From Trissonchulus latispiculum (lineage: Eukaryota; Nematoda; Enoplea; Enoplida; Ironidae): 64,000 nt of DNA. The stretch spans positions 62,001 through 126,000 of the forward strand of contig JASAND010026798.1 in NCBI GenBank assembly GCA_030248195.1, in the 5' to 3' direction. The translations under genes and the position numbers were made by a program. The notes below the pieces were generated by a model. That model did no database searches and had not been told where the DNA came from. It worked only from the letters and a program-made list of their open reading frames with translations. The first letter of the stretch is position 1. Each line of letters opens with the position of its first letter. Shown piece after piece: positions 2,705 to 59,523 of this stretch.

Positions 2705-3224
2705 AAGTTGTATGGGTGGGAGGGGATATCTCAATCCAATGATTGAGGTGCGAAAAAAGGATACTATACTACTTGCAACTATCTATAAGCGATTTCTGGA
2801 GCTTTTGCCAATCGTGCAGGAGAGGCGAAAATGTTTCGCTGGTTCTGTTTTTCGTGGTACAAAAAGCACCAATATTACAAAGTTTTTACTTTGAAACATC
2901 GTCAAAAATGGACACTCAACAGAAGTGTTCCAGAAGGGTTATTTGCACTCTCTGATATGTCATTAACATGTACAACAAGGTTGTAGCAATGTATCTTTCA
3001 TACAGTGAAAATTTTTTCTGCCACAAACTTTTTAACCTAACTTTTTCATTTTCGAGTTTAACACATGTCGAGGTCACCTTTGTAGGGCTCTACAGCACGA
3101 TAGAAGCAATATTACGCAAAACGCTCTTGTCTAGTTTTGAGGACCAACTGGGACTACAAAATATGTGAAAACTAACAAAATCGGAGATGGTCAAAAAATC
3201 GGCCAAAAAGCGACCCCCCTGCTT
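2705..3224 (-). repeat. Copy of a C-run/TTAA-ended dispersed repeat
   Basis: Segments of this stretch match the reverse complement of 53997-54450. Shared parts include the block around the CTATCTAT word near 2780, the block around 3090-3170, and a terminal GGAGATGGTC...GACCCCCC...CTTAAG end. It is a diverged copy of the element family described at 53997-55216, in the opposite orientation. The short frames inside it are not credible genes. Confidence 0.65.
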
Positions 3225-7261: not shown

Positions 7262-7334
7262 GCCTGGGTGGCTCAATCGGTAGAGCGTTGGCCTAGTTAG
7301 CCAAGGGTTGTGGGTTCGATCCCCACCTCAGGTG
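7262..7334 (+). tRNA. tRNA-like gene, anticodon AGT (Thr)
   Basis: A full 73-nt cloverleaf can be drawn: 7-bp acceptor (GCCTGGG with CTCAGGT, two G-T pairs), D arm GCTC/GAGC with a GG-containing loop, a perfect 5-bp anticodon stem (TTGGC/GCCAA) with loop CTAGTTA, a 5-bp T arm (GTGGG/CCCAC) with loop TTCGATC, and G at position 73. The internal promoter boxes are intact. The anticodon reads AGT. Position 37 is T, where a purine is usual, so a tRNA-derived repeat or pseudogene is possible. It directly abuts the decayed gypsy element. Confidence 0.7.
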
Positions 7335-8689
7335 CTGTAGTGACATCCTTCTTTTTTTCGTTTATTATCGTGTATTCTTTTACTACAAAAACTTGGATTT
7401 TGATGGGAACCCATGAATGCGCTGGCGAGTCAAAATGTAGAGCAAGATTAGTAACATTTCTGAAATTTTCCCGCCTTCGGTGAGTTCTCCATTACATTTT
7501 TCAAAAAATTTATTCGCTTTACGTTCTTACTCATATTGCTGATTGCCACGACAAGTTGATTTTTTCATTTTCCTATGGACTTAAAAGGCCCTGTCTTGCA
7601 GATTGTAGCAATTGAAAAACTAATCAATTATATTCCAAAAATGATTATTCCTATAACTTCATAAATTAATGGCGAAAATACACGAGATTAGTTCCTGATG
7701 AGTCCTAGCGGAGCTTTCATCAAGTCCGACGATCCTAAACTTGGTAAAGCTTTTACAGGATGTAATGAAAAAGCTATTCCGGAAGTTCGTAGACCCTCTT
7801 TTTGTATAGCTAAAAAGGTACGACCTCCGCTCATTGCCCTTGTATGTTCATTATACTTTACAGTTTTGAGTGTACGGTAGTTGTGGACTACTTTCAAAGT
7901 GCAGGCAGCCCGTAGCCAAATCGCAAGATTCCAAAATAATTGAAAGCTGTTGAGAGTGTGCTACAGTAAGAACCAGTCGCCTTTTATGGCCTTTGTAATT
8001 TCTGAAAATAAGATCCTAACAATAGGTTTCGTGCTTATTATGTCTAAGGGGTCTGGATCTGATTGGTCGTCCTGTGAACAAAGGGAGCTAAAGTATGAGT
8101 CAAGAATGTGAGAGTAATATTTTCCAAACGCGGCTCAAGGCCAAACAACGATGTCGTAAAGAGAGCAAAACAAGTGCAGTATATCAATACGTACAAATCA
8201 AAAACTCATTATGGGCCTAAGAGGAAAAGCAATATACAGATGCATCTGTGTTAATAATTAAGAATCTATTAATTTCATGTACTGCATAGACAAAATTTAC
8301 CTATTATTAGCCTTCTTCGAAATCAAGCAAAAATTAGCTTCAACTCTATCATAAAATTGATGCAGACAAGTTGTTGCACTTAAATGTGTTATTCGGTATA
8401 ACTTGGTTTTAGATGAAGCTACCTCTGGATATCTTCCTAAACCGCCCTTTCAATTGATTGGAATTCAGTGATGGGCCTGAAGATTTCTGCCGTGATGAGA
8501 AATGCATAAATCAAGATTTTCAAAAAATTCTTTAAATACTTAGATTTCGCTGGATTTTAAGGCTACTACTGTTCATTATTTTGTTTCTGTTCATATCTGT
8601 GAAAAAACCAGCTGCCTGTAAAAAATTAATATTATTCTTATTTTCAAAATTGAAAAGCAAATTGACAAGAAAATTTAAAAAATTAAGCC
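7335..8689. other. No gene seen
   Basis: AT-rich DNA with many stops in all frames. I see no repeat with a clear boundary and no convincing exon. Confidence 0.5.
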
Positions 8690-10504: not shown

Positions 10505-11090
10505 ATAGAAAAGTTGTCCAAATGAGCTAATTTTGGTATCATTCGAAAGCTCTCGGCGAGTAATGAAAAAGTTGTAATAGGGTCAAGGCCGGAAAATGCA
10601 CCCATTTTGAGTTATGAGGCCGAAAATGGTCAAAATGGCCAAAAACGGCCAAAATGGCTCAAAATTGAAAATTATGGGATCGGGCTCGTATTGGTATCAT
10701 TCGAAAGCTCTCGACGAGTGGACAAAAAGTTGTAATAGGGCCAACGCACCAAAGTGGAGGAGAAATGAGTTACGGAGCCTCAAATGGGTCAAAAATGGCC
10801 AAAATCGGTCAAAATGGGTCAAAATTGAAAGTAACCGAAACCGCCCAATATGGATATCATTCGAAAGCTCTCGTTGAGTAGATGAAACGTTGTAATAGGG
10901 TCAAAGCACCAAAATGTACAGAAAATGAGTTACGGGGCCTCAAAGGGGTCAAATATGGCCAAAGCCGGCCAAAATGGGTCAAAATCAAAAGTTATGGAAA
11001 ACGACAATATGGGTATCAATCGAAAGATCTCTTTGAGTATATAAAAAGCTGTCATAGGGACAAGGGGTAATATCGTAGGATAATTGACTT
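10505..11090 (+). repeat. Tandem array with GGCCAAAATGG words, copy 1
   Basis: About three to four units of roughly 130-170 bp repeat the phrases ATTCGAAAGCTCTCG, GTTGTAATAGGG and GTCAAAATGGCCAAAA. The long frames across it arise from the repeat composition. Confidence 0.7.
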
Positions 11091-11412
11091 ATCTTATTTA
11101 TAAGAGGAAAAATGCAGCGGCAACCCGTTCATGCCACTTTGCTTGTTATTATTATTGGGTTGCCGCTTTTTCACAAAAAGGCAACCCTTTGTGTTGGGTA
11201 TGTCCGTTATTTCTTTATTATTTCTTCTCCGGATTCTTGTCCCCCCCTTCTAACTTTTGATTGGCTGGACCGATCCGGCTGAAATTTTCAGGGGGAGTTG
11301 GCGGTGACCTAAAGTGCTCCCGGAAGCGCGGGCAGTTCGGTACTTTCCGGATTCCGGGAATGGCGGTAACCGGAATTTTTTAGAATGGTAAGGGGGGACC
11401 AAGAGAAACGTA

Positions 11413-12110
11413 AAAATTTTTTGTCTCCGATTTCGCTCAAAAGTTGGTCATAGGGTAATTCGACCATGCTGATTTCGAAACTGAAATCGAAATTTCCGGA
11501 AAGTTTACGGATTTCGAGATATTCGCCCCGGAAAATTTCGGATTTTGAAAAATTTCTTCAAAAGTAGTTGATATGGTACTCAAATGAAAGAGCTCGTCGA
11601 GCTAAGCAACTTTCCTTCTTGTAACATTTTCCGGAAATACGTCTAGCGAAAGTTATGGCCGAAAAACAGAAAATCCGGGAATTTCCAAAAACCCGGATTT
11701 TGGGCCGAAAAATTTTTTGTCTCCGATTTTGCTTAAAAGTTCGTCATAGGGTAATTCAACAGCGCTGATTTCGAAACTGAAATCGAAATTTCCGGAAAAT
11801 TTACGGATTTCGAGATATTCGACCCGGAAAATTCCGGATTTTGAAAATTTTTCCGAAAGTGGTCGATATGGTACTCAAATGAAAGAGCTGGTCGAGCTGA
11901 ACAACTGTCCTTCTTGTAACATTTTCCGGAAATACGTCTAGCGAAAGTTATGGCCGAAAAACAGAAAATCCGGGAATCTCCGAAAACCCGGATTTTGGAC
12001 CAAAAATTTTTGTCTCCGATTTTGTTTAAAAGTTGGTCATAGGGCAATTCGACCATGCTGATTTCGAAACTGAAATCGAAATTTCTGGAAAATTTACGGA
12101 TGCCGTGGTA
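11413..12110 (+). repeat. ~293-bp tandem repeat, about 2.3 copies
   Basis: Units begin at about 11413, 11711 and 12005 with TTTTTGTCTCCGATTT. Each contains CTGATTTCGAAACTGAAATC and ACATTTTCCGGAAATACGTC. The third unit is cut short by the next module boundary. Confidence 0.8.
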
Positions 12111-12349
12111 CTGGACACGCAATATTTCTTGTTGATAAGAGGAAAAATGACAGCGGCAACCCATTCATGCCAATTTGCTTGTTATTATTTCTTCTCCGGA
12201 TTCTTGTCCCCCCCTCTATCTCGAGATTGGAAAGGGGTAGAGAGGTGGTTGATACCTCATTTTGAAGGTCTTGACTTGAACTGCTCCCGGAAGCGCGGGG
12301 AGTCCCGGGGGAGCAGAGGTGCTCCCGGAGCACCCCCGTGAGTAAAAAT

Positions 12350-12960
12350 GAATAAAATAAAAAAGTTGTCCAAATGAGCTAATTTTGGTATCATTCGAAA
12401 GCACTCGACGAGTAAAGAAAAAGTTGTAATTGGGTCAAGGCCTGAAAATGCACTCATTTTGAGTTATGAGGCGAAAAATGGTGAAAAATGGCCAAAAACG
12501 GCCAAAATGGCTCAAAATTGAAAGTTCTCAGATCGGACTCATATTGGTATCATTCGAAAGCTCTCGCTGCGTAGATAAAATGTTATAATAGGGCCAAAGC
12601 ACCAAAGTGTACAGAAAATGAGTTACGGGGCCTAAAATGGGTCAAAAATGGCCAAAATCGGTCAAAATGGCTCAAAATTAAATAGAGTCGGAAATCCACA
12701 ATATGGATATCATTGAAAAGCTCTCTTTGCGTAGATAAAAAGTTGTAATAGGGCCAACGCACCAAAGTGGAGGAAAAATGAGTTACGGAGGCTCAAACGG
12801 GTCAAAAATGGCCAAAAATGGCCAAAATCAGTCAAAAAGGGTCAAAATTAAAAAGTGTCGGAAATTCACAATATGGATATCAATCGAAAGCTCTCGTTGC
12901 GTAGATAAAAAGTTGTAATGGAGACAAAGCTCCTAGCTGCATGCAAACGGAGTTATGTCC
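12350..12960 (+). repeat. Tandem array with GGCCAAAATGG words, copy 2
   Basis: Same type of unit as at 10505-11090, again with ATTCGAAAGC, GTTGTAATAGGG and GGCCAAAATGG phrases. The two arrays sit in the same place of the first and third modules. Confidence 0.7.
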
Positions 12961-14251: not shown

Positions 14252-14254
14252 TTA

Positions 14255-14345
14255 GGAACCGTGTCAAAAATATTTCGTATAATACGAAATATTATATACG
14301 ATTTATTGGCAGTCGTATATACGATATTTTATGATCGTATATACG
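14255..14345 (+). repeat. Left terminal and subterminal repeats of the BEN/DDE transposon
   Basis: The terminal 18-mer lies at 14255-14272. TCGTATATACGA lies at 14313-14324 and TCGTATATACG at 14335-14345. The phrase ATTTATTGGCAGT near 14300 recurs inverted at the right end near 20107. Confidence 0.85.
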
Positions 14346-14657
14346 TTTTATACAAAGAAATATGCGATATAAATACGTTTGCTTTTTAAGACCTTCAGAA
14401 TTGTATCAATTTTTTGGGAAACGCTTAAACACTGCTTCTTCAAAGGCTGTTTTCATCTAAAGCAGTTTAGCCTTACTTTTTGCAACTGCCAAAGCTGATG
14501 TCTGAATAGGACTAAAGCTCTGAATAAAATGAATCAGCTGACTGTTGCTTGTAGGAGTATTAGCATACGTATGGAAGCAAAAACTTACAACTAAGCTCAA
14601 ACTACATCCTAGTTTGCGGCGAAAAGCTTATACTTTATTTCTATTATTGTGTTGACC

Positions 14658-14993
14658 ATGTCTGACAGGTCGGCTGTTGTTATTTATGTCAGTGACAAAA
14701 ATGCGCTAAATACAGATTGTACTGTTTGGGTTGATCACATTTCTTTCAAAAAGTTTGTTGATCAAGAGCAGATTGCTGTTAATTGTCATGCTGAGGTTTA
14801 CTTCCAAGGCAAGCCCTATCCAGTTCATGTTTATAACATTTTCTCTGCCACCGAAGCTGAACTTGCAGAGAAGACTACAAATGACCTAGTCAAGAAATTC
14901 CAGGACATACGCGAAAAAGGATTGACGGTGAGCAAAACTAGTTATAACTTCAGTTTAACTGCTTTTGACATAGTTTACAATAGATTACACTGA
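14658..14993 (+). CDS. Exon 1 read-through form, 111 aa
   Basis: From the ATG at 14658 the frame stays open to TGA at 14991-14993, and an AATAAA lies only 26 bp further (15019-15024). A strong donor, GACG/GTGAGC, sits at 14927/14928, exactly on a codon boundary. The region can therefore act as exon 1 of the BEN-like gene or as a short intron-retained message with its own poly(A) site. The 90-aa shared part has no motif I can name. It may be a small domain like those preceding BEN domains in invertebrate proteins (inference). Confidence 0.55.
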   Translation: MSDRSAVVIYVSDKNALNTDCTVWVDHISFKKFVDQEQIAVNCHAEVYFQGKPYPVHVYNIFSATEAELAEKTTNDLVKKFQDIREKGLTVSKTSYNFSLTAFDIVYNRLH

Positions 14994-17900
14994 TTGGTCT
15001 GCTTGTTAATTATTAATTAATAAAGAGTAGGTAAGTACACTTTCAAAATATGTATGCAGTATTCGCCTTCGGCAATTAGCAACTATATCTTAGGGCCGTT
15101 TCGCGCAGCAAGTTAAGCGAGTTAAGAGTTAAAATTAACTCAATCCTATTCGCGCAGTGGGTTAAAATAGCTAAACACTTCATTTTAGCTCGCTAGCAAG
15201 GTTAAACTAGTTAAATTTTTTAACTTCACTCTACTAACTCGCGCGCGAATAGGCCCTTGAAGGAGATAGAGATGGTCGTAACGGCAGTAGAAACAGAGCA
15301 TATTTCTTATATTGTCGTCATACAGTCTATAGAAAAGAGATGTTTCAGTGGAATTTGCAAGAGTACTCCTTTAACAGAGCATTTCGGAACAAAATATATA
15401 TAGTCAGATATTTCGCACAAGCCTATTTTCGCACAGAATCTAAAATTTAGATGGCTAGAAACTCTCGAATAGTGTGCCATTCGCATTCGATTTTTACTTT
15501 CACTGAAACAACTCGAATTAGCAACATTAAATTGGCTCTAAGAATGCATTATGGATTCATGACGCTTTTGGTCTGCAGCACTAAGAAATACGTATCGACA
15601 GCCTTTTTCACATCGTCCTTTCACTGGGTTACGAAGATCTGAGTCGGCAGGTTTAGGTAGCCTGGATGTGATACCCAAAAGATTAAGATAAGTCAGCCTT
15701 TTCGTACGAACATCATCGATTTCAGGTGAGGGTATGAAATTCCCGTGCTCCACTAAAAATGACTTAAAGCGGGTGGCTAGGACTGGCTTGATTTGGCATC
15801 TGCATGTAGGGCTGTCACACTTCGAAAATTCGATTTTATAGGTTGTCCGGTTGCTGTGGTTCAGAAGAAACTTTAGGCAATCCTTATGGTCAGAGTTTGC
15901 GGCGTTCTTTAGAGGATTCTTCAAAAACTCAGACATTTCGTCGTACATTGATTTCGGAAAATAATCTGTATTTGCGGATTCATTTTTAACACAGTGAACC
16001 AATGCAGGGTATCCATCATAGGTGTCAGGGCGAAAATACCCTGCACAGATTTCTAGAGCCTGGTCAAAAACTTCCGCGCTTTTTCTTTCGCTGTCTTCTT
16101 TTGACAGAGCTTGCTTCCAGGGAGGAAGAGTCTCACCAGGCAAGCAAACTGGAATTGTGACTCCAGCCAGTCGCTTCGTCAGAGATCCCCATCGGCGCTC
16201 GATAGGATTATATTTAGAATGCCCTGGGGCATAACACGCTATTACCAGGTGATCCAACCCTAATTCTTTCCATAAGGTCCCAAACATGCAAAGATTTATC
16301 AGATTCTTTGGACTCCAGTCGGGACCGCCGTCTGCTATGATGAAGACTACGGATTTACCACTTTCCAGCAAAAGTTGAGGCAGAAAATTCATAATATTGT
16401 TTATGTGACGTTCAGATGTCGATTTATGATACTTCTGAACAGCTAGATATAAATATAAAGGCCCAGCTTTGTTACTTGAAAATCTTGGGCGTCGAAGTTC
16501 GTCAAACTTAAGCTGAGGATGTTTCAGTTTCGTAAAATACGAATTTTCTGAAACAGATCGTTTCCGTTGACATAGACCCAATCTTGGCGCCGTTTGATCT
16601 TCCAGATTCCTGCTTTGCAGGAGTTTCTGGTGCATGACCATATATCCTGACGGAGTGATCTTACTATCTGCAACAGGGAAAGTGTGGTCTGGATCGTTTG
16701 GTGCTAGGCTTTGAAGATGGAGACCACGGGGTCGATGGATACTGCTTAAGGCGGGCACACCAATATTTACTTTATTCTTATTGTCTGCTGACATAATGAC
16801 AATTTCGTCGCTGAAGATCACACTGAGGTCTGTCAGATAGTTAATCTGGGCAGCGGAATACTGAAAATCAGTGCTAGCATTAGTGGTTAAGTCGTTTCGC
16901 TTAGGAGGATGCTTAAAGGGAATGAGGCCTTTATAATATTTTGACGCTGTCGCATTCTTTCTGGGAGCCAAACCTAGTCTTCGACAACTACTTCGGCTTA
17001 TCTTAGCTTTAGGATCAAAGGGATACTGGAGTCGAAGAAGATGATTTACAGCATTGCTCATTTCCGTACAAGATGTGCCACAAGAAAACATAGTGGTATC
17101 CTGTCTTTTCTCGTGAGCACCGGTGGCGTTTTGGTTCAAAGTGTCGTTCACGAAGTTAATGACATCAGGGTACTTTGAGTGCACTGGAGGTCGTCCTCGT
17201 CTGCGTTTGTCAGATTGAGCAACTTTCTTGAGCCGCTTTCGATCAGCCTTGTCAGAAAAGATCCAATCAATATCCGAGTCGTCAGAGTCAAAATCTTTGG
17301 CCCACTCAACAAAGTTGGCCATAAAGTGAAATTTAAAATTATATGGATTAATTCAAAACTGAAACAAAACGAAACAGAAATCAACTTTGCAAGTGTAATA
17401 GTACAAAATAAAATGAAACTAGGGAAATCGAACTCAACAAAAAATATTTGGCAAAAAATATGCATTCTTAGAACTGCTGTGGAGATTTAAGAAAGAAGAA
17501 GTCGCATTTTGGTCGATTTTTCGACCGTCTCAGCTCAGGTAAATTACTTAAGTTGCGAGCAATAGGTCAGATCAACATAGGTGTTATTATCTTACGGGCA
17601 ATCTTATTTTTAGTCGGGTTCAGTAATTTAACGAACTTTTTTTTAATTTCAGATCAGCCCTTGCGGTGGTTGCTATCTTTCTAACGAGAGCCACCAAAAC
17701 ACCAGTCAGCCTGCTACCGACGAACCAACACAGACGCCTGTCTCTGCCGGAGAGCTTACGACATTAAAAACATTGCTGCATATTCAGGGAACGCAGATTA
17801 AGAATATTGCCAGCTCCATTGGTTCGATGAGAACGGAGTTGAACAATCGATTACGGACTTTAGAGGGATCGATGTCTCTAGTCAAGGAGAAGGTTGATTT

Positions 17901-19832
17901 GATGTCAGATATCATCTACAGAAGGTGATTTTTACTAAAGGTTGTGGTAGCATTTTGTAGTGGTACCGACGGTTTTTGGTTAATTTCTGTAGTCAAAATT
18001 TCAAATGACAAAATTTCATTGGTCAGAAATTAACTATTCTTCTTTAGCCACAATTTCGGTTTTGAAGCAATATAAGTTAAACTTTCGATTGTCAGAATTT
18101 TGAAAGTTAGAATTTCGCTAATCAGAAATTCGATAGTCAGAATTTTTTTGTCAGAATCTGTTGAAAACAATAGTTTTTCTGGAGCAAAGATAAACGAAAT
18201 TGTTAGTCGAAATAAAAGACGAAGTCCGCTTCTAAATAGTACGACTATAGACTACTACTCGTATTCAAACCACTATACTGTGCAACAAACTGGTTTATAG
18301 CTTTGAGGTGAAATTACTCGCTAACCGTAAGAGATCCGACTTTAATTTCAAAAACTCGTTAAAATATACCAATTGGACAACAAAATGTGTGAAAATGAGC
18401 AAAACCGGAGATGGTCGAAAAATCGGCCAAAAATGGACCCCCCCCCCTTAAGCTAACTCAGGAAAAACGTTGACATTTTAGGTCTCAACAGTCTCCCGAT
18501 GCTAGTCATCCTCCAGAGCAGGAAATGCTACAGGAGGAAACAGGATCGGCGACTGAAAGTTCAGCAGAAGGCTTAGCCATTACTTCGCAATTGATTACTT
18601 CAGCAATATCCGGTGAATTGGGCGGCGGTGGAGATGTGGTCTATAATAGCCAATTAGGTAACGACTACGAGCGACTAATCTAAGTACTTTCTTAATTGTG
18701 GCAAATTTGTTTGAAGTCAAATTTTATTGCAGTGGATTTATCAGCTCAGTATGGATCCAGCAATCAGAGGTTGCGGGTTCGAACCTAAATCGTACTAACT
18801 ATTGCTTTTGGTGACATAAACATTTTTTGTTGTTGTTGTTGTAACTAGAATCTTCTGTACAGCAGTGGTATTTCTAGGGATAAATCTCTTGAGATTTTCT
18901 GGTTTAAATATTGGAAATGAAAGAGTAGCCTAAACATCCAATATTTCCGTCTACGCATAAGTTAACTAGCTAACACGGCTAGTACTTAGTTCAATAACTC
19001 TAAGTTAGATTATATGGTACATGATCAATTATTAACTAGGTAGTAGTGCTTACAAAACAAGTAGTAATATTTCGACTGGTGGTAAGATTATTAGATTAGA
19101 TTAGATTATTAGATTATAAATATTAGTCATAAAGGTACTCTTTCTGTGCTTGTTTTAGACGCTGGCAATATGGAAATTGAGCAGGATTTGCATGAAATCC
19201 CTGAACCTGATCAGTCTGCCCCCGATCCACCATTCGATACTAACGAGTCTCTGGAAGTGCATCACGTTTCTCCAGCTATTCTGCCTCATGACACCGAAGT
19301 CGTCAATGATAATCGGTGTCAAGCAGCTTCGGCTCCTAGTCGGCGCATTGGTCATCTCTGTGACAGCTCATGTTGCAAAGTCACTGCTGAAGCTACCGTT
19401 CCAGTTGGTCCCGAAGATTGCTATCTCTTGGGTGGAGCTCCTGCTGGCGCTTCCAGTTACTGCATAAGCCTTAGCTATTTTGAAAGAAAGTTTATGAATG
19501 AAATTCTGCTTTCTAGCAAAATAGCACCGGATCAAAAACCGAAAAAATTTATTTCCAAATTGTTGCCGCTCTTGTTTACAAGAGATGAATTAGGTCAATC
19601 TAGTGTTTCTGGAAGCCCCAGAAAATATCAGGATATGATGCACTACAAGAGTCAGCTTTGCCGGCGGCGATTGGGGGTCCTCATGAGGGAGGTTCACCGT
19701 CAATTTCCCAATATTGCCACGTCTTCAAGCCCTCAAAAAATGAATAAGGATGCGAAGACTTGGATTAACAATATCTGCCGAAGTGCACATCACAATAATA
19801 AAAAAACTGCTGCACATTCGCTCAAATTCTAA
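14658..19832 (+). CDS. BEN-like domain protein of the transposon, four exons, 463 aa
   Basis: Proposed exons are 14658-14927, 17653-17924, 18482-18657 and 19159-19832. Introns have GT/AG ends, all junction phases agree, and the sum is exactly 464 codons with the stop. Residues 1-90 form a compact domain with aromatic and hydrophobic strands. Residues about 91-120 are Ser/Thr/Pro-rich. About 122-180 look like a coiled coil. About 347-427 contain KKFISKLLPLLFTRDEL, SSVSG and REVHRQFPN, which fit a BEN domain (DNA and chromatin binding). Intron 1 (2.7 kb) holds the transposase gene on the other strand. An AATAAA follows the stop by 80 bp. Likely role: accessory DNA-binding partner or regulator of transposition (inference). 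Exon 1 may also be read to a stop at 14993. Confidence 0.7.
15019..15024 (+). terminator. AATAAA poly(A) signal after exon 1 read-through
   Basis: Canonical AATAAA 26 bp after the TGA at 14991-14993, within intron 1 of the spliced form. Confidence 0.55.
15093..15256. repeat. ~164-bp MITE with GGGCC ends in intron 1
   Basis: The left end GGGCCGTTTCGCGC and the right end (inverse of GGGCCTATTCGCGC) differ at two bases. The flanks are TTA and TTG. The inside is built from AGTTAA/TTAACT words. The ends resemble the MITE at 26086-26649. Confidence 0.65.
15538..17322 (-). CDS. DDE transposase, 594 aa, Zator/Transposase_36-like
   Basis: An intact single-exon frame. An acidic N-terminus is followed by an AT-hook-like RRGRPP at 41-46. 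The proposed catalytic triad is D180 in MSADNK, D331 in IIADGGPD and E375 in YNPIERRW. The context APGHSKYNPIE is typical of DDE transposases in which the last acidic residue follows an N-P-x-E. The C-terminus has C502/C507/C509 and a finger-like C571-x3-C575, H588-x4-H593. It would cut and join the transposon ends. It lies in antisense within intron 1 of the BEN-like gene, with its ATG 331 bp from exon 2, so the interval between may hold a bidirectional promoter. I saw no AATAAA for it. The DDE class is well supported; the superfamily name is inferred. Confidence 0.8.
   Translation of the reverse strand: MANFVEWAKDFDSDDSDIDWIFSDKADRKRLKKVAQSDKRRRGRPPVHSKYPDVINFVNDTLNQNATGAHEKRQDTTMFSCGTSCTEMSNAVNHLLRLQYPFDPKAKISRSSCRRLGLAPRKNATASKYYKGLIPFKHPPKRNDLTTNASTDFQYSAAQINYLTDLSVIFSDEIVIMSADNKNKVNIGVPALSSIHRPRGLHLQSLAPNDPDHTFPVADSKITPSGYMVMHQKLLQSRNLEDQTAPRLGLCQRKRSVSENSYFTKLKHPQLKFDELRRPRFSSNKAGPLYLYLAVQKYHKSTSERHINNIMNFLPQLLLESGKSVVFIIADGGPDWSPKNLINLCMFGTLWKELGLDHLVIACYAPGHSKYNPIERRWGSLTKRLAGVTIPVCLPGETLPPWKQALSKEDSERKSAEVFDQALEICAGYFRPDTYDGYPALVHCVKNESANTDYFPKSMYDEMSEFLKNPLKNAANSDHKDCLKFLLNHSNRTTYKIEFSKCDSPTCRCQIKPVLATRFKSFLVEHGNFIPSPEIDDVRTKRLTYLNLLGITSRLPKPADSDLRNPVKGRCEKGCRYVFLSAADQKRHESIMHS
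17653..17924 (+). CDS. BEN-like gene exon 2 (linker and coiled coil)
   Basis: Preceded by a pyrimidine-rich tract and TTTCAG; followed by AAG/GTGATT. It starts at phase 0 and ends two bases into a codon. It encodes a Ser/Thr/Pro-rich linker and then a heptad-like stretch containing TLKTLL, RTELNNRLRTLEG and VKEKVDLM. Confidence 0.75.
18390..18451 (+). repeat. End of the C-run/TTAA repeat family inside intron 2
   Basis: The block GAGATGGTCGAAAAATCGGC, then a C run, then TTAA (18448-18451) matches the ends of the elements near 3224 and 53993. The other end is not evident in this intron, so it is a partial copy. Confidence 0.6.
18482..18657 (+). CDS. BEN-like gene exon 3
   Basis: Preceded by TTGACATTTTAG and followed by TTAG/GTAACG. 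It completes the split codon of exon 2 and leaves one base for exon 4. It encodes an acidic, Ser/Gln-rich linker with a GGGG run and no named motif. Confidence 0.7.
18733..18792 (+). repeat. Degenerate tRNA-like sequence in intron 3
   Basis: A GATTTAT and CTAAATC pair could form six of seven acceptor pairs, with a D-arm-like CAGCTCAG and a box-B-like GGGTTCGAACC. The anticodon and T stems are imperfect. It is probably a tRNA-derived SINE relic rather than a gene. Confidence 0.35.
19159..19832 (+). CDS. BEN-like gene exon 4 (BEN domain)
   Basis: The acceptor is TTGTTTTAG at 19158. The exon's first two bases complete the split GAC codon from exon 3, and it then runs 224 codons to TAA. It contains a Cys-rich CDSSCC stretch and the BEN-like region KKFISKLLPLLFTRDEL, QSSVSGSP and REVHRQFPN. 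Confidence 0.75.
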
Positions 19833-19911
19833 GCCTTGCCTTTTTGGCCACAGCATCTGTTGCTTATATTGTGTGTCTTAAAATTTTGCTGCGTAGGTAC
19901 TAACAGTTATG

Positions 19912-19917
19912 AATAAA
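19912..19917 (+). terminator. AATAAA poly(A) signal of the BEN-like gene
   Basis: Canonical AATAAA 80 bp after the stop codon of exon 4, still inside the transposon. Confidence 0.65.
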
Positions 19918-20170
19918 ATATGTAGTTTTTGCGAAACTGTATGCTTGCTTTCAATGCAGTCTTATACGTACACGAATGCATTAAAACAGCTGTGAACTGT
20001 GAAGTAGGCAGACAGACAAATGTAAAGCATAGGTTTTTGCGATAAAAAAGTGATGACTAGATATTAGCTGCATTAGACAAGCTTGGAGTCAAGACAAATT
20101 GTGCACTGCCAATAAATCGTATAATCCAAAATTTATACGATATTAGCCAGCCAAAAATACGATTTAAAGC

Positions 20171-20247
20171 AATCGTATATACGGTTTTGAATCGTATAAA
20201 CAGATCGTATATACGATATTTTTGAATGCTATTTTTGACACGGTTCC
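20171..20247 (-). repeat. Right terminal and subterminal repeats of the BEN/DDE transposon
   Basis: TCGTATATACG at 20173-20183, TCGTATATACGA at 20205-20216 and the inverted terminal 18-mer at 20230-20247, followed by TTA. The spacing differs slightly from the left end. Confidence 0.85.
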
Positions 20248-20250
20248 TTA

Positions 20251-27402: not shown

Positions 27403-27843
27403 TTATAGCTCCGCCCGCTCGTTGGGCATAGCAAAAGCCTCCGCGTAGCGCGTGAGGTAATCAACTATACACAGCACGCAAGTATTGCCTCTATTAGTTT
27501 CCTTCTGTGTAAAGTGCATCACATCCATGGCCACGACGTCTAACGGTCGGCGTACCACCACCGTATTCTGCATTGTAGCTTGATGTCTAAACGGCCCTTG
27601 ATTAAACTTTGCACAGGGCTTACACTGAGCAATAAAGTCCTCTAGATCTTGAGAGATTCGAGGCCACCAATATCGTGTTTCTAGGCTGGCCATTGCATTT
27701 TGATGAGCCCGATGGCCACCCGTTGTAAAATCAGAATGAACCTCCTGCAAGAGTTGCTCTCGCTGGATCTTAGGCACTACCACAGTAGGAAACGGCAATC
27801 CTCTATGTTCGGCATGTTTATTCAGATGCCAACGATATAACAC
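27403..27843 (-). pseudogene. int: Retrotransposon integrase N-terminal part
   Basis: An open stretch of 146 codons includes an H-H-C-C zinc-binding domain: two histidines in HSDFTTGGH and two cysteines in CKPC, with YWWPRI between them. The start of the catalytic core follows, with the first aspartate in VVAMDVMHF and then CIVDYLTRYAEAF. The later D and E are absent because the element ends here, apparently cut by another repeat. No integrase activity is possible from this fragment. Confidence 0.85.
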
Positions 27844-28103
27844 CCCATCTCTAATAAAAAATGTAGATCGTAACTTCTGGGGGGAGACTTCCTACACCCC
27901 AGGCACTGGGTAGACCTCGTAGTCAGTTAAGATATCTTCCGATGGTGCAAAGATTACTGTTTGATTCACGGCCGGTTTGGCTGCGCCTTCGAGGTATCAT
28001 GACTTCCGAGCGAGGAGGCAATTTACGAGTCTCTCGTACACAGTAATACACTGTGCATGAAACCGCAATACTGAGCTATTAGCTATATGTTAGCTATATA
28101 TTA

Positions 28104-28108
28104 TATAG

Positions 28109-28141
<33 letters not shown>
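28104..28141. repeat. (TA)n tract at the RT deletion junction
   Basis: About 19 TA units lie exactly between the last protease codons and the remaining integrase side. Confidence 0.8.
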
Positions 28142-28143
<2 letters not shown>

Positions 28144-28145
<2 letters not shown>

Positions 28146-28712
28146 CTAGAGCTTGCAGGTCACCTGGTGTAAGCAACGGAACTTTCTTCTTGTCACACAA
28201 CAGGATATGTTGGTGTGGGAAGACCACCCAGTTATGGTCTGCTTGAAAATCGTATCCAATAATAAAACCCTGTTGTATACTATTCGTCACGTTAAAGGTG
28301 TATTCGTACCAAATACCAAGTAACTTGAAAGGAATCTTAACCGTACCCAAAATAGCAAGGCTACGATCGTCGGCCGCGTGGCCACTTCCGTAGCTTTGGT
28401 CACATCCAAGTGGAACCGTCCGTTAGCATTAATCTGATCAAAGAATTGCTTAGACAATAAACAAATGTTGGCACCTGTGTCCAACAAAGCGAAAGTCTTA
28501 ATGCCTTTGACCTCCACGATGACGTATGGACTTTTCTTCAGTGATATATGGGTGCACTGGGAGACGAAGAATTGAGAAGTTCCGTTCAGGACCGATAATA
28601 CTGCTCTATTCAGATGTTTATTAGTGGTTGCGGGTTGCCCGCCAACCTTCTCTGGGTCAACGTCGTCTACCTCTAAGTTGAGGTCCACTCCTCTAAGTTG
28701 AGGTCCACTCAC
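28144..28712 (-). pseudogene. pro: Retrotransposon aspartic protease
   Basis: ALLDTGANICLL carries an intact D-T-G active site, followed by SKQFFD. In a shifted frame come FIIGYDF (the conserved late protease motif) and PLLTPGDLQALA. One frameshift near 28340 splits the domain. It matches the plus-strand relic at 5960-6410 throughout. Confidence 0.8.
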
Positions 28713-29478
28713 CTTACTGGGGTAATGGCTGCTCTCAGTTGTTCTTCTAAGTCCGAGTTACCCAGCTCGTTTACAATATCCGCTGAAGTCACTTTAGTAG
28801 GTATTGCATCTGCAAGCGTATTTTCCACGGTCGCTGATTCTAGTACAGCAGAAGTAACATCTGCCTGCGCGGCCACAGGCTCATCATCAATTGGTGTACT
28901 GTCCTGGACAATGTTCTCGTTCGGGTCGTTTAATTGGACTCCCCGTCTGCCCTTCCGGGGTTGAGGAAGGTCCTCTGACCAGATTGGTTGGTCAGGTTCA
29001 CGAAAAGTTCCTTTTTGTTGAAGTTCTATGGTACGCTCGTAATCCTTCTGTACAAATTCAGCCAAAGGTTGCTCAAAAGCCTGTGTCGATTGGCGTACCT
29101 AATCCGTTACGGATGTTACGTTAACCGCCAACTGTTGAATCTGTTCGCCGATAGACTGAGCGACCACGTGCGCTTGTTGGACAGCTTGATTAACCGCTGC
29201 CCAACCTTGTCGGATTATCGCATATTCCGGAGTTTCTAACAGGGCGAACATGTTATGGGTAGATATACCGGGTTGCCCCGGCGTTTTCGGACGCTTCGTC
29301 CCTTTTTTACCTGTTCCCATCCTCCTTGGGTTTCCTTGCGCAATTTCAAAGGTGTTACCGGAGTAGCTCCAGTCCTATGAACTTCAACCGGTGCTAGCGT
29401 TAGTCCCGAGTTACTAGATTCATCATCCGAGACGTCCGTTTCCGTTAGCTCTTTCCGACTAGGGCTATTCACTGTTGA

Positions 29479-30372
29479 TCATGGTTTCAAGGCGCTCGGC
29501 CTTTTGGGTGGAGAAGCACCAGTACTTACGATACTGGGCGTCTTCTTCGTAGGAATGGGCGTTTTTGGCACGGCCAATTCTGACACTTGGGTTTCCCCAG
29601 TGCTTACTGCTGAAAGCCCATTACCCGTGGGCTGGTATTCCCCAGGGCTTTTACCTTGCTCCTCATTTACAGAGGCCTGGTTTTCCCCAGGGCTTTTGCG
29701 ATGAGCCCCAGCTCCCGAATGGTTCTCTGTTCGGGTTGACGTCCATTGTTGTAAAGGCCGAATGACCTCGATGGGGTCTGTTTGTACCTCCTTCGAGGTA
29801 GATGTTTTCCTTTGCCTCCGAGTCGGGCCCGCGCCAGGTTGCCTAGCACGAGTCTGCGCCGCCATGACTGCGGAATTTTCCTGCCACTTCATGGCCTTAC
29901 GCACTGTAGAGTGCATATTCCATTCAGTACCAGGTGCTCGTTTCCACCGCCTATTATATGGGACGGTACGTTGGGAAGCTCCTCCGTCACCAAAAAGTTT
30001 CACTTCTTTACGCCATCGGTTCCAATATTTGTATGGCCGGAGGTTGCCTTCGCCATCGTAGACTACGTCACCTCCGTCCGGGAAGCCTCCATTTGCGAGA
30101 ACCACTTCCTCTTCCGGGAACCATTCAGCCCGTCTACGTACTTGCTTGCAGGTTTTACACGGACATTTCCATGGGTTCACATCCCGATTCGTGTCTTTAT
30201 TCAAATACACGCACACAGGTTCCTGATCCCGTATAGGAAGGGGGTCGCCTCCTTTACACTCACTTTCCGAGTCACTACGCCATAGACCTCCATAATTCCA
30301 ATAAGGCTCATTACTAGGCTTGTTAGTAAGGTTAGAATTAGTAACAATAAAGGCTTGCACCGCACATACCAT
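29479..30372 (-). pseudogene. Polyprotein segment with the GGFP/WRK module, 297 codons
   Basis: The longest open piece of this element. After an acidic start come clustered cysteines (CPCKTC), WFPEEEVVLANGGFPDGG, a DGEGN block, YKYWNRWRKEVK and FGDGGA, then basic and Ser/Pro-rich sequence with QTDPIE. It matches the two copies in the plus-strand element. I know no named domain for it. Conservation of glycine, tryptophan and cysteine residues between decayed copies suggests it was under selection when the elements were active. Confidence 0.6.
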
Positions 30373-30742
30373 TTCACCAGACGGTTTTGTGAGGGAGGGT
30401 GAGGGACACGGGTCCAGGTCTACTGCCCGCGCCCCGCATTCTCGTTTCCCGGTTCCGGGAAACCTTCGTACCGACGTGGGCCTACATAACCCCTGCTAAT
30501 GGAGCGGGGTCTGACTGGTTGTTGTCGTTGATTCCTTCGATCCTGCTGGCCTTGCTGTCGTTGTGGATCCTGCTGGTTACGCTGGTCCTGATTCCTTTTC
30601 CTTTGGTTCCGCTGATCTTCCTCATAGCGGCTCCGGGCAGGGGGTCACCCTCCTGTCCTCTGTACCGGTACTGCGTCTGGGTATTACCCCGTGCCTGGTT
30701 CTGACCCTGATCATTCTGATTCAGGGATTGCAAGTAGTCTGG

Positions 30743-31666: not shown

Positions 31667-32892
31667 TCATGGGGTTCTGGACCGTCGCGTATCGTCTCGG
31701 TGCCGACGGGGTTGCGCCACCGGCGATTCTCTCACCTGATCATCAGATGAATCCAAATCTACAAGTGGTGGGACCCTCTGCTGGCTCCCTCTACAGCTAC
31801 GGATTGGCTCTGGGCTCGACTGCCGGCCCGGCTGAGACTGCCCCATTTGGAACGTGGGAGCCACTGCGTCTGGATCCAAGCTTGGGTTGGGCCACATACG
31901 CAGTAGCTCCATACAAACTCGAGGAAAATTCCGCTCGAGTGTCTCCCATGTTTCTCTCGGGATCTCTGCTATCCATGCTGTAAGCAGACCTCTGATCACG
32001 CTATATTCCTGTTCAGTTAGGCCCCTTACCCGGAAGAGGCCCGCAGTGTCCGGCGCTTGAGACCGATGTCTAACAGGCACCGTGGGTTGGTCCCGTAGCG
32101 GGACCACCCAACCATCCATCGGCCCACGCACTTTCGGTTTCCTATCCGGTTCCGGTTCAGGGTCATCGCCGTCCGGCCATTGACTGCTGCTAACCCGTTT
32201 CGGGCGTCTTGACCGTGTGAGGTCGATAAGAGCTGTAGAACGGAAGCGTGGGCCTGAAACCGGTGGGTCACTAGGACCTGCTAGCCCTGGCTGTCGCTGA
32301 TGCCCAGTCCCCCCCTTGCCGTTGCGGCTTAGAGCGGGTAAAGGAAGAAAATGGCATAGCTCCTGGTTGTCTGCGTACAAGAGAGATATCCGAGCCTAAT
32401 CTTGGCCGTTGTCAGAATAAAGTCAATTCAAGTTGGCTAATAAAAGCTCGTAAATCCGAAACGTCAGAAATACCTGGCACTGGTTCTGCTAGCGGCTCCT
32501 TGTTGGTCTCTCTGTTCTGGAGAGTAGAATCGATGCGGGCCAGCTTGAGGCGCAGGAATTCTAATTGATCTCTAATACTCGCTTGTTCATCCCATTCGTC
32601 TTCAATGAACTCCCCCTGGTCAGTCGGTGACGGAAATTTATCTGTCTTATCGTTGGTCATCGTGACCCTGATCCGTAAGTTCTTCCTGTGGTTCCTCCTT
32701 TTGGGAGGCTTTATTTTTGGTCGAATCCGATCGCAAGAACAGTCTACTAGGCGCAGCGCCTGTAGAGGCCGGACCAGCGGATGCCTGGCTTGCCGAGGAT
32801 TGAGTAGAAGAATGCTTGCTCAAGTCCGGTTGACTAAACAACCGCCCAAAGCCATCTGGATTCAAGGGTAGGTTGTCCATTGCGCTACTCAA
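31667..32892 (-). pseudogene. N-terminal Gag-side region in three frames
   Basis: Open pieces at 32892-32647, 32660-32412 and 32380-31667 overlap or abut in different frames. They are charged and rich in R, P and D, with no named motif. Position and strand fit the N-terminal part of this element's Gag polyprotein. The start near 32892 is a guess. Confidence 0.45.
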
Positions 32893-44512: not shown

Positions 44513-45307
44513 GGCTTTACGTGTAGGTTTTAGACATAGTAGTAGGTAAGAAACTGAAATACTGGCATTTTCACTTGCAATTACAAGGCAGCAATTCTGA
44601 ACTTCTTCAGTTCACTGAGAAACTAGTTAAACAAGACAAACTCTTCCATTGATGGAATGCCCATCCGAGTGTGTTTGCAACCGTGGGGGACTGGGTTCTG
44701 CAATGGCCATACTGATTCAATTCGATACAGCTCAAAATGTGCCGTTTAAAGCAAAATCGCAGGGTGACGTTTCAAACGAGTAGCTGAACGATTACTGCTC
44801 TGAACAGCCAAAATCAAGGCTGCTGGATCACCTATTTGAGCCAGTGTTGGAGGGATTCCAGTTGTTTCGGTTTATGTCAATTTTTCAATTACGTATCGAT
44901 TAAGTGCATTCTTTATCCTTACGAGCTCAAGAACAATGATCCCTATCCTAGTAACATGCGAAATATCAGCCAAACCGGTTAACCCCAGCGGATATTCTGG
45001 TATTTGGCAACTCATTTTAGGGTTTTCATATCAATTATTGTAGTTTACTCCATGTAGTCATATTCATTTATACAGAAACGCAGACAGTCAAAATCTGAGA
45101 AATAGCAATCCTTCTGGCATTGTACCGTTTTGCTTCTGGACGTTAAGATGTTCTGAACGCAGTTGCTGCGACAGTTCGGAGTTTTAATGTATTCAGGTTT
45201 CTCACATTTGCTAACACAAAACTTGAGTGTCTTCGTAAGAAGCATTGTTAATGCTGTACTGGGTAAGCCAGCCAGAATAAGCATGAAAAATAAACTTATC
45301 ATTTTAA
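44513..45307. repeat. Segmental duplication block, copy 1
   Basis: About 795 bp matching 61746-62536 in the same orientation. It includes a cysteine-rich peptide gene and about 530 bp of its downstream sequence. Similarity stops five to six bases upstream of the ATG. Confidence 0.85.
45045..45302 (-). CDS. Secreted cysteine-rich peptide A, 85 aa
   Basis: A short frame with a hydrophobic signal peptide (about residues 1-19, LFFMLILAGLPSTA) and a 66-aa mature part with eight cysteines in four C-x3-C pairs. The spacing is C-x3-C-x10-C-x3-C-x13-C-x3-C-x6-C-x3-C, and the tail is acidic and aromatic (EYDYME). The coding part is one exon. On the minus strand, CTGCTTTCAG ends exactly 16 nt before the ATG, as in paralogs B, C and D. 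A conserved module lies about 1.35 kb upstream (46649-46702). Paired C-x3-C motifs suggest disulfide-linked helical hairpins. Function is unknown. Secreted defence, signalling or toxin-like roles are possible but not shown. Confidence 0.75.
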   Translation of the reverse strand: MISLFFMLILAGLPSTALTMLLTKTLKFCVSKCEKPEYIKTPNCRSNCVQNILTSRSKTVQCQKDCYFSDFDCLRFCINEYDYME

Positions 45308-45317
45308 GAGGTATTGA

Positions 45318-45321
45318 CCTG
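45318..45321 (-). promoter_or_regulatory. 3' splice site 16 nt before the ATG of peptide A
   Basis: On the minus strand TGCTTTCAG ends at 45319 and the 16-nt leader runs 45318-45303. The same 16-nt distance occurs in B (48358), C (52695) and D (59414). Confidence 0.65.
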
Positions 45322-46106
45322 AAAGCAGACAGATCATAAATAAGTCAATGAATCAATACGTTTTTCAAAACGTTGGTTCGACTGCTCGGTCGTAACCGAA
45401 GACAGTGTGAAGTTAGCACTGGCAGGAAAGATATAAATTATATTCGAGTTGTTAAGCCAAGTAAATTTAGCGCTACGTTTTCATAAACGTTCAATGATTT
45501 TTTCATACTCTTGTCTAAATTCGCAGGTCAGTTAGCTAATATGCACGATTTGTTAGGTTCGGGGAAATCGCGAGTTAGTTGGCTGTGCGCTTGATTGGGG
45601 TAAGGTTGTTTGTATAAGTTGGGGAAAGTTCGGAGTTATTTTGTTACCGCGTTTTGGGGTGCGCGCTATTCCTATTCGGTTTTTGTCAGTGCCATTAAGT
45701 GTGTTTTGTCCTTTTTATATTAATCAGTCTCGCTGAGTGTGCATGAAAATTAATCAATCATTGTAATAGCTTTTCTGGAGTTTAAGTTGGTCAGGACCGT
45801 ACATTTCTCAAATGTCACGCACCACCGGTATTCACTTGTAATTTAGGATTCTAACTTAATAATCAAATAGACAACAGTATTGTACTAACTCTCATAGGCT
45901 CAAACTTCACAACAGCTTACAACTGTGTGGAAGAGACCTTCACGGGCCGAAATTTTTAGGCCCGACCCGACCCAAAAATCTCAACTGCACAACTAAGGAC
46001 TGTATATTGGGTAATTGCCTTAAACATTGATTCAAGCCAAAATTCATATTCAAATCATATGTTATTCATATGATGTTCTTCTGTGTGATGTGATGATGTG
46101 ATCATA

Positions 46107-48060: not shown

Positions 48061-48342
48061 TCACTTCTGCTCATAATAGTCATAATGCTTTCTACAGTCA
48101 CTCAAACAATTCTGATAAGCTGTCTTTTCATCCGTCCGGTGGCAATACGTTTCTTGACACTGCTGTATGCTGTATGCGTAAACTCTAGCGTTTTGCAAAC
48201 AGTTTCTGCGACATTCCGATAATTTACTGTAATCAGATGTTGCGCACTTGCTGCGACAAAAATTGCGTAGCGGATCGGAAAACGATCTCCCTGCAATTTG
48301 GGATAAACTTGCCGCCAAAACAATCACACTTAAACAAATCAT
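48061..48342 (-). CDS. Secreted cysteine-rich peptide B, 93 aa
   Basis: Signal peptide of about 18 residues (MICLSVIVLAASLSQIAG), then a mature part with eight cysteines spaced C-x3-C-x10-C-x3-C-x13-C-x4-C-x11-C-x3-C. The C-terminus ends YEQK, as in peptide D. On the minus strand TTGCTTTTAG lies exactly 16 nt before the ATG. It shares the four-pair cysteine scaffold with A, C, D and E but little else, so the family is divergent outside the cysteines. An AATAAA follows. The nearest upstream module copy is 3 kb away at 51301, with MITEs in between. Function unknown. Confidence 0.75.
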   Translation of the reverse strand: MICLSVIVLAASLSQIAGRSFSDPLRNFCRSKCATSDYSKLSECRRNCLQNARVYAYSIQQCQETYCHRTDEKTAYQNCLSDCRKHYDYYEQK

Positions 48343-48889
48343 CGCGGAAGGGTTTTCGCTAAAAGCAAATTTTCGAATACTTTATAAAGCAATGCAAAAC
48401 TAATTTTAATAACTTTTATTTACTGAGTAATTAACAATAATTAAATGTCAGATAATTTTGATATGAAACGGGTTCATTTTTCCGGATCCGTACTCCAACG
48501 TGGGCACAGGTCGAAGAATAAGAATTCAGATCCAGAGCCAACTCGGAGGGCTATGCATCGAACGACAGGGTCTTGAAGTCAAGTAACAGTCAGTAAACTC
48601 ATTAGTTTTTGTTTCGATTTAGATTCTACTGCTGCATTCTCAGCTTACTAAGGATGCACAAGACTAACCTCCAGTTTATGGCATAATAAAGCCATCTTTG
48701 AACTAGACTCAATGATACCGCATGGCAAAATAAGTCCCCCTTTAAAAGGAGGTATTCATTCAACAAGGCTTAAAGCAATTAAATTAAGCCAGCCGCTAAC
48801 AGTGTTCATTTTCCTCCATTTTTAATAGGGGATTGTTTTCAACAATAGTTCTGATGCAACATTTGGGAGCATTTGTAGGTCTTATCCCG
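48343..48889. other. Upstream region of peptide B, no gene
   Basis: Presumed intron or 5' flank of gene B on the minus strand. I see no conserved module in this near part. Confidence 0.4.
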
Positions 48890-52400: not shown

Positions 52401-52679
52401 CTATCCATATTGGAAATGACTTCTACAGTCATTCATACAGTCGCTATACGTTGGCATTCCTTGCGGTACCTGACAATACAATTTCTGACATTCCAGAACT
52501 CTGTATTCAGCTACTCTGGCTTTTTCCAAACAGCTGCTGTAGCAGCCCGATTGTTTGCTGTAGTCAGGTGTGCCGCACTTGGTGCGGCAAAACTTTTGCC
52601 CCGGTGGAAGGACTTGATATGATGTTCCGCTAATTTCGGATAAACCAGCCAGCATAACTATAAGTATGATACGCAGCAT
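52401..52679 (-). CDS. Secreted cysteine-rich peptide C, 92 aa
   Basis: I start at the ATG whose complement ends at 52679, because TTCATTTTCAG lies exactly 16 nt before it and the extra upstream codons would be intronic. Residues 1-18 form a signal peptide (RIILIVMLAGLSEIS). The mature peptide has eight cysteines spaced C-x3-C-x10-C-x3-C-x13-C-x4-C-x11-C-x3-C, identical to B. An AATAAA follows about 46 bp after the stop. The conserved module lies only about 0.4 kb upstream (53092-53138), the closest of the set. Function unknown, presumably secreted. Confidence 0.75.
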   Translation of the reverse strand: MLRIILIVMLAGLSEISGTSYQVLPPGQKFCRTKCGTPDYSKQSGCYSSCLEKARVAEYRVLECQKLYCQVPQGMPTYSDCMNDCRSHFQYG

Positions 52680-52784
52680 CCCAAATGTGTGTGATCTGAA
52701 AATGAAGCAAGTTGCCACAAATTGAACACAACCTTAGCTCTGTAGCGAAAGCTCCACCATATACTGTTACTATTATATCATATT

Positions 52785-53890: not shown

Positions 53891-55625
53891 AGCCCGGTTC
53901 ATACCTGTCTCTAAGTCTCTGTCTCTTGGTCTCTGTCACTGGCCCTTTCATACCTGTCTCTGTCCTTTTGTCCTTCTGTCTCTAAGCTGTCCTTAAGGGG
54001 GGGGGGGGGTCACTTTTTCGCCGATTTTTCGACCATCTCCGATTTTGCTGATTTTCACATATTTTGTAGTCCCCATGGGTCCGCGAAGCAAGACAAGTGC
54101 GTTTTGCGAAATATTGCTTCTATCATTCTGTACATGCCCTTAAAGGTGACCTCGACATGTGTTAAACATAGGAAAATGAAAAAGTTAGGTTAAAAAGTTT
54201 GTGGCAGAAACATTTTTTGCTGTATAAGAGTCAGAACTTTGAAACCTTTTCAGAACCATTAAGGACATATCGTAGAGTGCAGCTATCTCCTCTGAAACGA
54301 TTGTGTTCAGTATTGGATTTTTGGCGAATTTTTAAAGTCAGAATTTTGGAAAATCGCCCATTTTTGGACCATGAAAAACAGCACCTACGGTACTCTTTTG
54401 CTTGTCCTGAACGATTGGCAAACGCTACAGAAATGGCCAATAGATAGCTGCACTCTACGCTTAAAGCCGCGTCTTATGAAAGTACTCGCATGTTTCTATC
54501 ATCTACAGTAAGCTCGAAAAACTTGCCACAAAAACAGCAAATTTTGCTAAAAATGGCCATTTTTCATAATTTTCAAATTCTTTTGATAATTTCTCACTCA
54601 TTATGTGGTAAAAGATCACCAAACTTGGCAGATTAATTAATATGTCTATGTCTGTCACATAATGTGGCCAAAACAAATGCGCCAATATTGAACATGCTGC
54701 TGTGGCGGCACCTTTGATCTTTATAGGTGAAAAATGGCAATTTTAAAATTTTTCCAAATATAGACAAAATGGGTATCAATCGATAGCTAATAGAACGAGG
54801 AGCAACTTTTCTCATACAACCATGGGTCTAAAATGTTGTCTGTGCAAGATAGAACGAGTTAAAGTTATACTGGGCAATCCTGCAAGGTTAGGTCAGTGCA
54901 GCACTCAAGCATGCATTATGAACGCCTGGATAGCTGGCCTTGAGCCACGTCTGCACTTAAATATTACCTTAGTAAAAGCTTTAATTTGGTGTATCGGTTA
55001 ACCCTGCTTTCGGTCGCGTTTGGTCTCCACCTGACCTTGCAGGGCTCATCGCCGGAATTTTCAAGTTTTCCGGCTTTGTACCTGAATAACTCTGTCACAG
55101 TTTAATTTCGAACGCTAATATTCTAAGTTATTTTTCAGAACATATGGGGGGCATATTATGTGTAAAAATGAGCGAAATCCGTGACTATCGATTTTTGACC
55201 AAAGTGACCCCCCCCCTTAAGAGTCTCTAAGCGAAGTTGAACAATGCTGTACTTTTCTGCCTGTCCTTAAGAGACAGCCAATCAGAATAACAAATGATAT
55301 CACGTGAAAAGTGTCTGTTACCTGAATACTTAAAAGTAGCTGCATCTATATCCAATTTGAAAATAAGTTTTCCTCATAATATAACGTTAGCTGTTAACAA
55401 GACAATAACAATGATATTGTATCGTTCCAATTTAAAATATTTAGTTAGTTTTTAACTACACCAAGTGACCAATGAAATTTGAATTTTTTGTCATATGACC
55501 AAGTCTCTGTCCTTTTGTCCTTTTAAGTATGAACGACTTGTCTCTATCACTGTAGAGACAAAAGGACAGAGACGTAGAGACAGAGACTCAGAGACAGAGA
55601 CATAGAGACAAGTATGAACCGGGCT
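53891..55625. mobile_element. 1.7-kb inverted-repeat element with GTCTCT words
   Basis: The ends AGCCCGGTTCATACCTGTCTC and its inverse (one mismatch) are followed on both sides by runs of GTCTCTGTCTCT. A second element with TTAA ends sits inside it. No transposase is visible. I found no clear target duplication. Confidence 0.75.
53997..55216. mobile_element. TTAA-flanked element with G-run ends
   Basis: TTAA lies at 53993-53996 and 55217-55220. The ends are a G run then TCACTTT, and the inverse. TTAA duplications with G-rich ends fit piggyBac or Kolobok-type MITEs (inference). Parts recur at 2705-3224 and 18390-18451. It is nested in the 53891-55625 element. Confidence 0.6.
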
Positions 55626-59107: not shown

Positions 59108-59398
59108 TCATTTCTGTTCATAATGAAAATGATTTCTACAACCACGCAAGCAGGCGTCATAAGCTATCCTTCCATCCGTTGTCTGACAATACATCTCCTG
59201 ACATTGCTCCATTTTGTATTTAGATACTTGGGCACTTTCCGTACAGCTGTTGTAACATTCCCAGTATTTGTAGTCGTAGCCATCTGCATAGCACTTGCTT
59301 TGACAAAACTTATGTGACGGTGGTGGTTTCATTCGAATTGACCTTCCGTCAGTTTCGAATAAACTAGCCAGTATAACTATCAAAATGAAACACAGCAT
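59108..59398 (-). CDS. Secreted cysteine-rich peptide D, 96 aa
   Basis: Start chosen at the ATG whose complement ends at 59398, because TATATTTTCAG lies exactly 16 nt before it. The signal peptide is about 1-20 ([16 protein letters not shown]). The mature part has eight cysteines spaced C-x3-C-x11-C-x3-C-x13-C-x4-C-x11-C-x3-C and ends HYEQK. It is closest to B and C in layout. An ATTAAA-type signal is possible near 59054. The conserved module lies about 1.5 kb upstream (60884-60931), with a (TA)n tract and a repeat copy in between. Function unknown. Confidence 0.75.
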
Positions 59399-59523
59399 CC
59401 CCAAAGTGGTTAGTCTGAAAATATAGCACTTCACCACAAATTAATAATGTAAACTTAAAAGGAAAACTCTGCCACAGTCTTAAGCCACTAATAGGCGATC
59501 GGTGTCTACATATTTGCATCACA

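Follow-up and report, generated by a model that had tools for sequence, protein, structure and literature searches.

Can a eukaryotic DNA transposon carry a BEN-type DNA-binding protein as a partner of its transposase? This question is raised by a 64-kb stretch of Trissonchulus latispiculum contig JASAND010026798.1 (the window, to which all coordinates refer). Within it, a 5,993-bp element (14255..20247) contains a DDE transposase gene on the reverse strand and, around it on the forward strand, a four-exon gene whose predicted product ends in a BEN-like domain. Judged from its sequence, the locus is rather probably an intact, autonomous, two-gene transposon of the Zator kind, related to ISAzo13, with the second gene surrounding the transposase gene on the opposite strand.

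Element limits and transposase

The element is bounded by perfect 18-bp inverted ends with TTA on each side. The left terminal repeat, GGAACCGTGTCAAAAATA, lies at 14255..14272 (+), and the right one (20230..20247, −) is its exact complement; the two copies of the TTA target-site duplication (14252..14254 and 20248..20250) directly flank them. Searching the window for perfect inverted 14-mers at a distance of 1–10 kb and with identical 3-bp flanks returned two pairs, the element ends and a pair at 33297/37412 with GAC flanks. Moreover, TTA followed by the first 15 end bases, with up to three mismatches, occurs in the window only at the two element ends (0.10 sites expected), and 1 of 100 shuffles contained at least two such sites. 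An exact match to a 17-mer of the end sequence in viral contig L001 is presumed to be due to chance.

Paired palindromes lie just inside the ends. Four perfect copies of the palindrome CGTATATACG are present in the window (14314, 14336, 20174 and 20206), two sites per element end and all within 91 bp of an end. The left subterminal stretch (14272..14345) also contains ATTTCGTATAATACGAAAT (14272-14290), while the right one (20174..20215) consists of its two CGTATATACG sites. With one mismatch allowed, five sites were found against 1.0 expected, a number reached in 0 of 100 shuffles; the fifth, at 39638, is outside the element. In addition, a 19-mer at 14295..14313 (+) has a perfect inverted partner at 20105..20123 (−), and none of 100 shuffles held two or more occurrences. 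CGTATA/TATACG is found 31 times in the window, with 13 copies in the outer 146 and 148 bp of the element and 1 in the rest of it. Because of the subterminal palindromes, single-strand folding of both terminal stretches is better than that of shuffles (z of −3.9 and −3.3; 0 of 200 shuffles each). An Rfam scan of the element gave nothing credible. The inverted ends, TTA duplication and palindromic subterminal sites by which the original prediction had delimited the element are thus all present in the sequence.

The transposase is encoded by an uninterrupted open reading frame (ORF) of 594 aa at 15538..17322 (−), supported by the ORF call and by profile matches. Its likely catalytic triad is D180, D331 and E375; an AT-hook-like RGRP motif is found at residue 42 and a C2H2-like motif at residue 571. 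The Pfam search of the 594-aa product matched PF07592 (E = 3e-5; 23.6 bits, under the cut-off of 26.9), and NF033519 was matched at E = 1.1e-5 with 24.7 bits, short of the NCBIfam equivalog cut-off of 200 bits for the ISAzo13 family proper. The two profiles each match 11 of the 15 transposase family members (E ≤ 0.1 and E ≤ 1), and among 14 relatives a PF07592 label had been precomputed for 5. IS630 matches were also obtained in the profile comparison. On this basis, the transposase is of the DDE type and ISAzo13-related. Zator has been paired with the ISAzo13 family, with 3-bp duplications in both (PMC5718144, PMC10045372; a further source on both is PMC7386202; here and below, papers are cited from the parts available to us). 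Since an ISAzo13-related transposase and a 3-bp duplication are both present, the data point to a Zator-like element, in a comparison with the published features of Zator. The literature gave no D-to-E spacing for Zator among the matches listed.

The Tc1/mariner superfamily was set aside: a TA duplication would be expected, and the element has TTA. Foldseek comparison of the transposase model yielded no match at E ≤ 0.001; the top match, Mos1 (E = 5.9e-3), is a fold resemblance that fits any relative within the IS630-Tc1-mariner group. When the PDB was searched by sequence, neither the transposase nor its alignment retrieved anything relevant, and transposase relatives were not found in viral contigs. 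Collectively, the ends, the duplication, the uninterrupted 594-aa ORF and the profile matches agree with the earlier claim of an intact DNA transposon with a DDE transposase. Matching ends, a target duplication and an intact transposase with a putative catalytic triad, the features of an autonomous DNA transposon, are found together, and 14255..20247 is apparently an intact, autonomous cut-and-paste element.

Two of the 15 transposase-family proteins, which we read from their sequences as P0013 and P0014, also match a PHD finger, located in the same protein as the transposase. An association with chromatin readers may therefore have arisen more than once in this family; a repeated association of this kind is a lead.

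A four-exon gene around the transposase

The second gene runs along the forward strand from about 400 bp inside one end of the element to about 400 bp inside the other. Exon 1 (14658..14927), opened by an ATG at 14658, was placed by its frame, GT donor and codon-position signal. In the gene model it is followed by intron 1 (14928..17652), by exon 2 (17653..17924) with a heptad, coiled-coil-like stretch, by exon 3 (18482..18657), whose own coding signal is weak, and by exon 4 with the stop codon (19159..19832), with the BEN-like domain in the C-terminal half. A possible poly(A) signal, AATAAA (19912..19917, +), falls within the element; a sigma-70-type promoter scan was set aside as inapplicable to a eukaryote. 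Consistent with the nested arrangement first proposed, the entire transposase ORF lies antisense in intron 1. The spliced model comprises 1392 nt, or 464 codons including the stop, and stays in frame throughout, with GT at all three predicted donors and AG at all three acceptors, which bears out the claim that the four exons close perfectly. Judged by exon lengths, skipping of exon 3 would lose the frame.

The coding signal was assessed with a codon-position model and codon-usage log-odds, both trained on the transposase. Under the former, the spliced gene scores 34 nats higher in its predicted frame than in any alternative phase on either strand, and of 277 overlapping control stretches taken elsewhere in the window none shows so large a margin. 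For single exons the margin is 15 nats in exon 4 (reached in 3 of 284 control stretches), 8 nats in exon 1 and 1.6 nats in exon 3; in exon 2 the predicted frame and a reverse phase score alike. The codon-usage log-odds of the spliced gene in frame is 0.090, against a background mean of −0.069 and a 95th percentile of 0.019. Moreover, exon 4 stays open for 223 codons, and the longest run without a stop in 300 random sequences generated from a model of the element was 190; the heptad pattern at residues 130-178 was never attained when residues 91-200 were shuffled 500 times. On these sequence measures, it is well supported that the second gene is coding, and less well that its inner exons are exact.

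Intron 2 contains a fragment of a dispersed repeat (18368..18447, +), with other copies at 3143-3219 and 54000-54072, and a shorter piece of the same repeat lies in intron 1 (17501-17531). These pieces fit either capture of the gene or its long residence in the genome. Separately, intron 3 contains at 18776-18845 (+) a motif resembling a tRNA B-box, GGTTCGAA, with a TTG repeat after it; the two may be what is left of a short interspersed element (SINE).

The BEN-like domain and its possible role

The identity of the partner protein rests on its C-terminus. The Pfam search of the spliced product returned BEN, with 16.8 bits for the whole protein and 20.1 bits for a C-terminal piece; this piece was delimited after the first BEN match was known, a choice that favours its score. 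Among nine shuffles of the piece, none matched BEN and two matched other Pfam families (E of 0.039 to 0.091). The segment KPKKFISKLLPLLFT...SVSG aligns with BEND6. In structural comparison, the BEN-like model gave 17 Foldseek matches, the best at E = 4.7, which leaves room for families beyond those listed, and BEND6 appeared only at rank 30 in a second Foldseek comparison. A BEN-like C-terminus is thus supported by sequence, below the Pfam cut-off.

Several results weigh against a coding, BEN-type partner. Neither the whole protein nor the C-terminal piece reaches the Pfam gathering score of 23.2 bits. In a PDB sequence search, the C-terminal piece matched VirB8 (E of 0.12, 0.19 and 0.31) as well as BEND6 (0.29), over partly overlapping stretches. 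We set VirB8 aside because Pfam gives BEN and not VirB8, although the PDB scores of the two are equal; with VirB8 level with BEND6, this search is weak evidence, as is the PDB search with exon 4. No homologue was found at E ≤ 10 among 7,992 candidates scored with the whole protein, or among 253 with exon 4 alone. Exon 4 relatives were not found in viral contigs, and in prokaryote genome contigs a peptide pattern matched 14 stretches, none of which proved a relative by tblastn; a tblastn match of the protein in a Caulobacter phage (E = 9) is taken as chance. The codon-usage score does not discriminate the frame from one reverse phase (0.095), and in exon 3 it is −0.008 in frame against 0.142 in a reverse phase. 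Of the BEN-like partner originally predicted, then, the match itself and its loss in all nine shuffles stand, while its score remains sub-threshold and the protein without a homologue.

The second gene may instead be a chromatin gene of the host that was captured together with its introns and is carried as a passenger without a role in transposition; this is compatible with a Zator-type element, and we consider it possible if somewhat doubtful. Such a history would account for the four exons, for the repeat pieces in the introns, for the absence of a BEN match from all 15 transposase-family proteins (protein sequences only) and for the failure of both homologue searches. However, a full-length reading frame and coding signal have been kept, the AATAAA of the gene falls inside the right end, and the gene fills the element almost to its ends. 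Nor did a corresponding BEN gene of the host come to light, the genome itself lying outside the searches. We deem it unlikely that the model holds only for exons 1 and 4, with exons 2 and 3 or the joints mispredicted, or that the gene is a decayed remnant, both of which are compatible with a two-gene transposon. Every joint is GT-AG, the frame holds across 464 codons, and shuffling never reproduced the heptad stretch of exon 2; set against this are the slight lead of exon 3 over the next phase, the tie in exon 2, a codon-usage score matched by one reverse phase, and again the lack of homologues. These two accounts do not exclude the reading we prefer, and the likelihoods we attach to them do not sum to one. 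Finally, the transposase, which lies wholly in intron 1, might belong to a transposase-only transposon that landed there in a host BEN-like gene. This is very improbable: the matching ends and duplication flank the BEN-like gene from outside (14255, 20247), the end sequence (up to three mismatches) appears nowhere else in the window, and the only further inverted 14-mers with identical 3-bp flanks are those at 33297/37412.

For a two-gene transposon, we propose the following mechanism. The transposase would cut at the 18-bp ends and insert the element at a 3-bp target, and the second gene would supply a protein that combines a coiled-coil-like region with a BEN-like DNA-binding domain at its C-terminus. 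This protein, perhaps as a dimer formed through the heptad stretch, might bind the palindromes and so help to pair the ends or repress the promoters. Its pre-mRNA would cross the transposase gene antisense and could couple the expression of both genes; as BEN-like transcription must traverse the transposase gene, the two may interfere. We put forward only tentatively that the BEN-like protein binds the paired subterminal palindromes, aiding or restraining transposition, and that the antisense pre-mRNA links the two genes; the CGTATATACG sites could equally be bound by the transposase itself. Short palindromes are bound by the BEN domains of Insv, Elba1 and NAC1, the last of which has been described as monomeric, whereas the site of NAC2 is not palindromic (PMC7764960). 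More speculative still is the idea that a Zator-type lineage recruited a BEN-domain protein, which binds chromatin or DNA, as a dedicated partner for recognition of the subterminal palindromes, the nested antisense layout coupling the expression of both genes.

With Zator and prokaryotic ISAzo13, the element shares an ISAzo13-related DDE transposase, a 3-bp duplication and terminal inverted repeats; it differs, Zator being compared by description only, in the intron-bearing BEN-like gene around the transposase. Its second product resembles BEN-domain proteins (BEND6, NAC1, Insensitive/Elba) in the C-terminal BEN-like domain, the BEND6 alignment and the upstream heptad stretch, but it scores under the Pfam cut-off, has no relative found and is encoded inside a transposon. 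Two-gene DNA transposons include Harbinger, which encodes a transposase and a Myb-like protein. KolobokP combines a transposase with a His-Me finger nuclease (PMC9587614), and fungal DNA transposons with a TET/JBP dioxygenase are described (PMC12730594). All of these join a DDE transposase to a further DNA- or chromatin-acting protein; in contrast, the present element belongs to another superfamily, has another partner and places the transposase antisense in the partner's intron. A BEN-like fold is also used for reading transposon ends in the Tn3-family transposase TnpA, partly through its domain DBD1 (PMC9579193), but TnpA is bacterial, of a different transposase family, and holds the BEN-like domain within the transposase.

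No BEN-encoding DNA transposon is described in the available parts of the literature on the BEN domain and transposable elements or DNA transposons, where subscription journals are thinly covered, or, among the matches listed, in the wider literature (including PMC9579193 and PMC11075544); this absence is weak evidence. Should the gene prove a permanent constituent of the element, the locus would represent a eukaryotic DNA transposon encoding a BEN-type protein. Such an element would open a further path for BEN factors to pass between genomes, another having been linked to bracoviruses, and would offer a testable case of a BEN protein at transposon ends, parallel to the end-reading domain of Tn3. 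The nested antisense layout would be an unusual coupling of transposase and partner.

Other features of the window

Pieces of a retroelement of the long terminal repeat type lie at 27406-28757 (−), where an H2C2 integrase domain (E = 8.5e-16) is accompanied by a sub-threshold match to a retroviral-type protease (E = 0.0019); Pfam matched neither of the two adjoining long ORFs (29482-30495 and 31670-32395). A group of five related small ORFs rich in Cys, all on the reverse strand (45048-45344, 48064-48381, 52404-52733, 59111-59440 and 62277-62657), shares a hydrophobic N-terminal stretch and perhaps represents a local family of secreted proteins; the three of the five that were scanned (48064, 52404 and 62277) gave no Pfam match at E ≤ 0.01. 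Long tandem arrays occupy 10535-12930, two having 160-bp units rich in GGCCAAAA-like motifs, with an array of 295-bp units between them. A tRNA-Thr-like sequence at 7262-7335 (+), which scores 60.7 bits and is the sole tRNA hit in the window, is perhaps the head of a tRNA-derived SINE.
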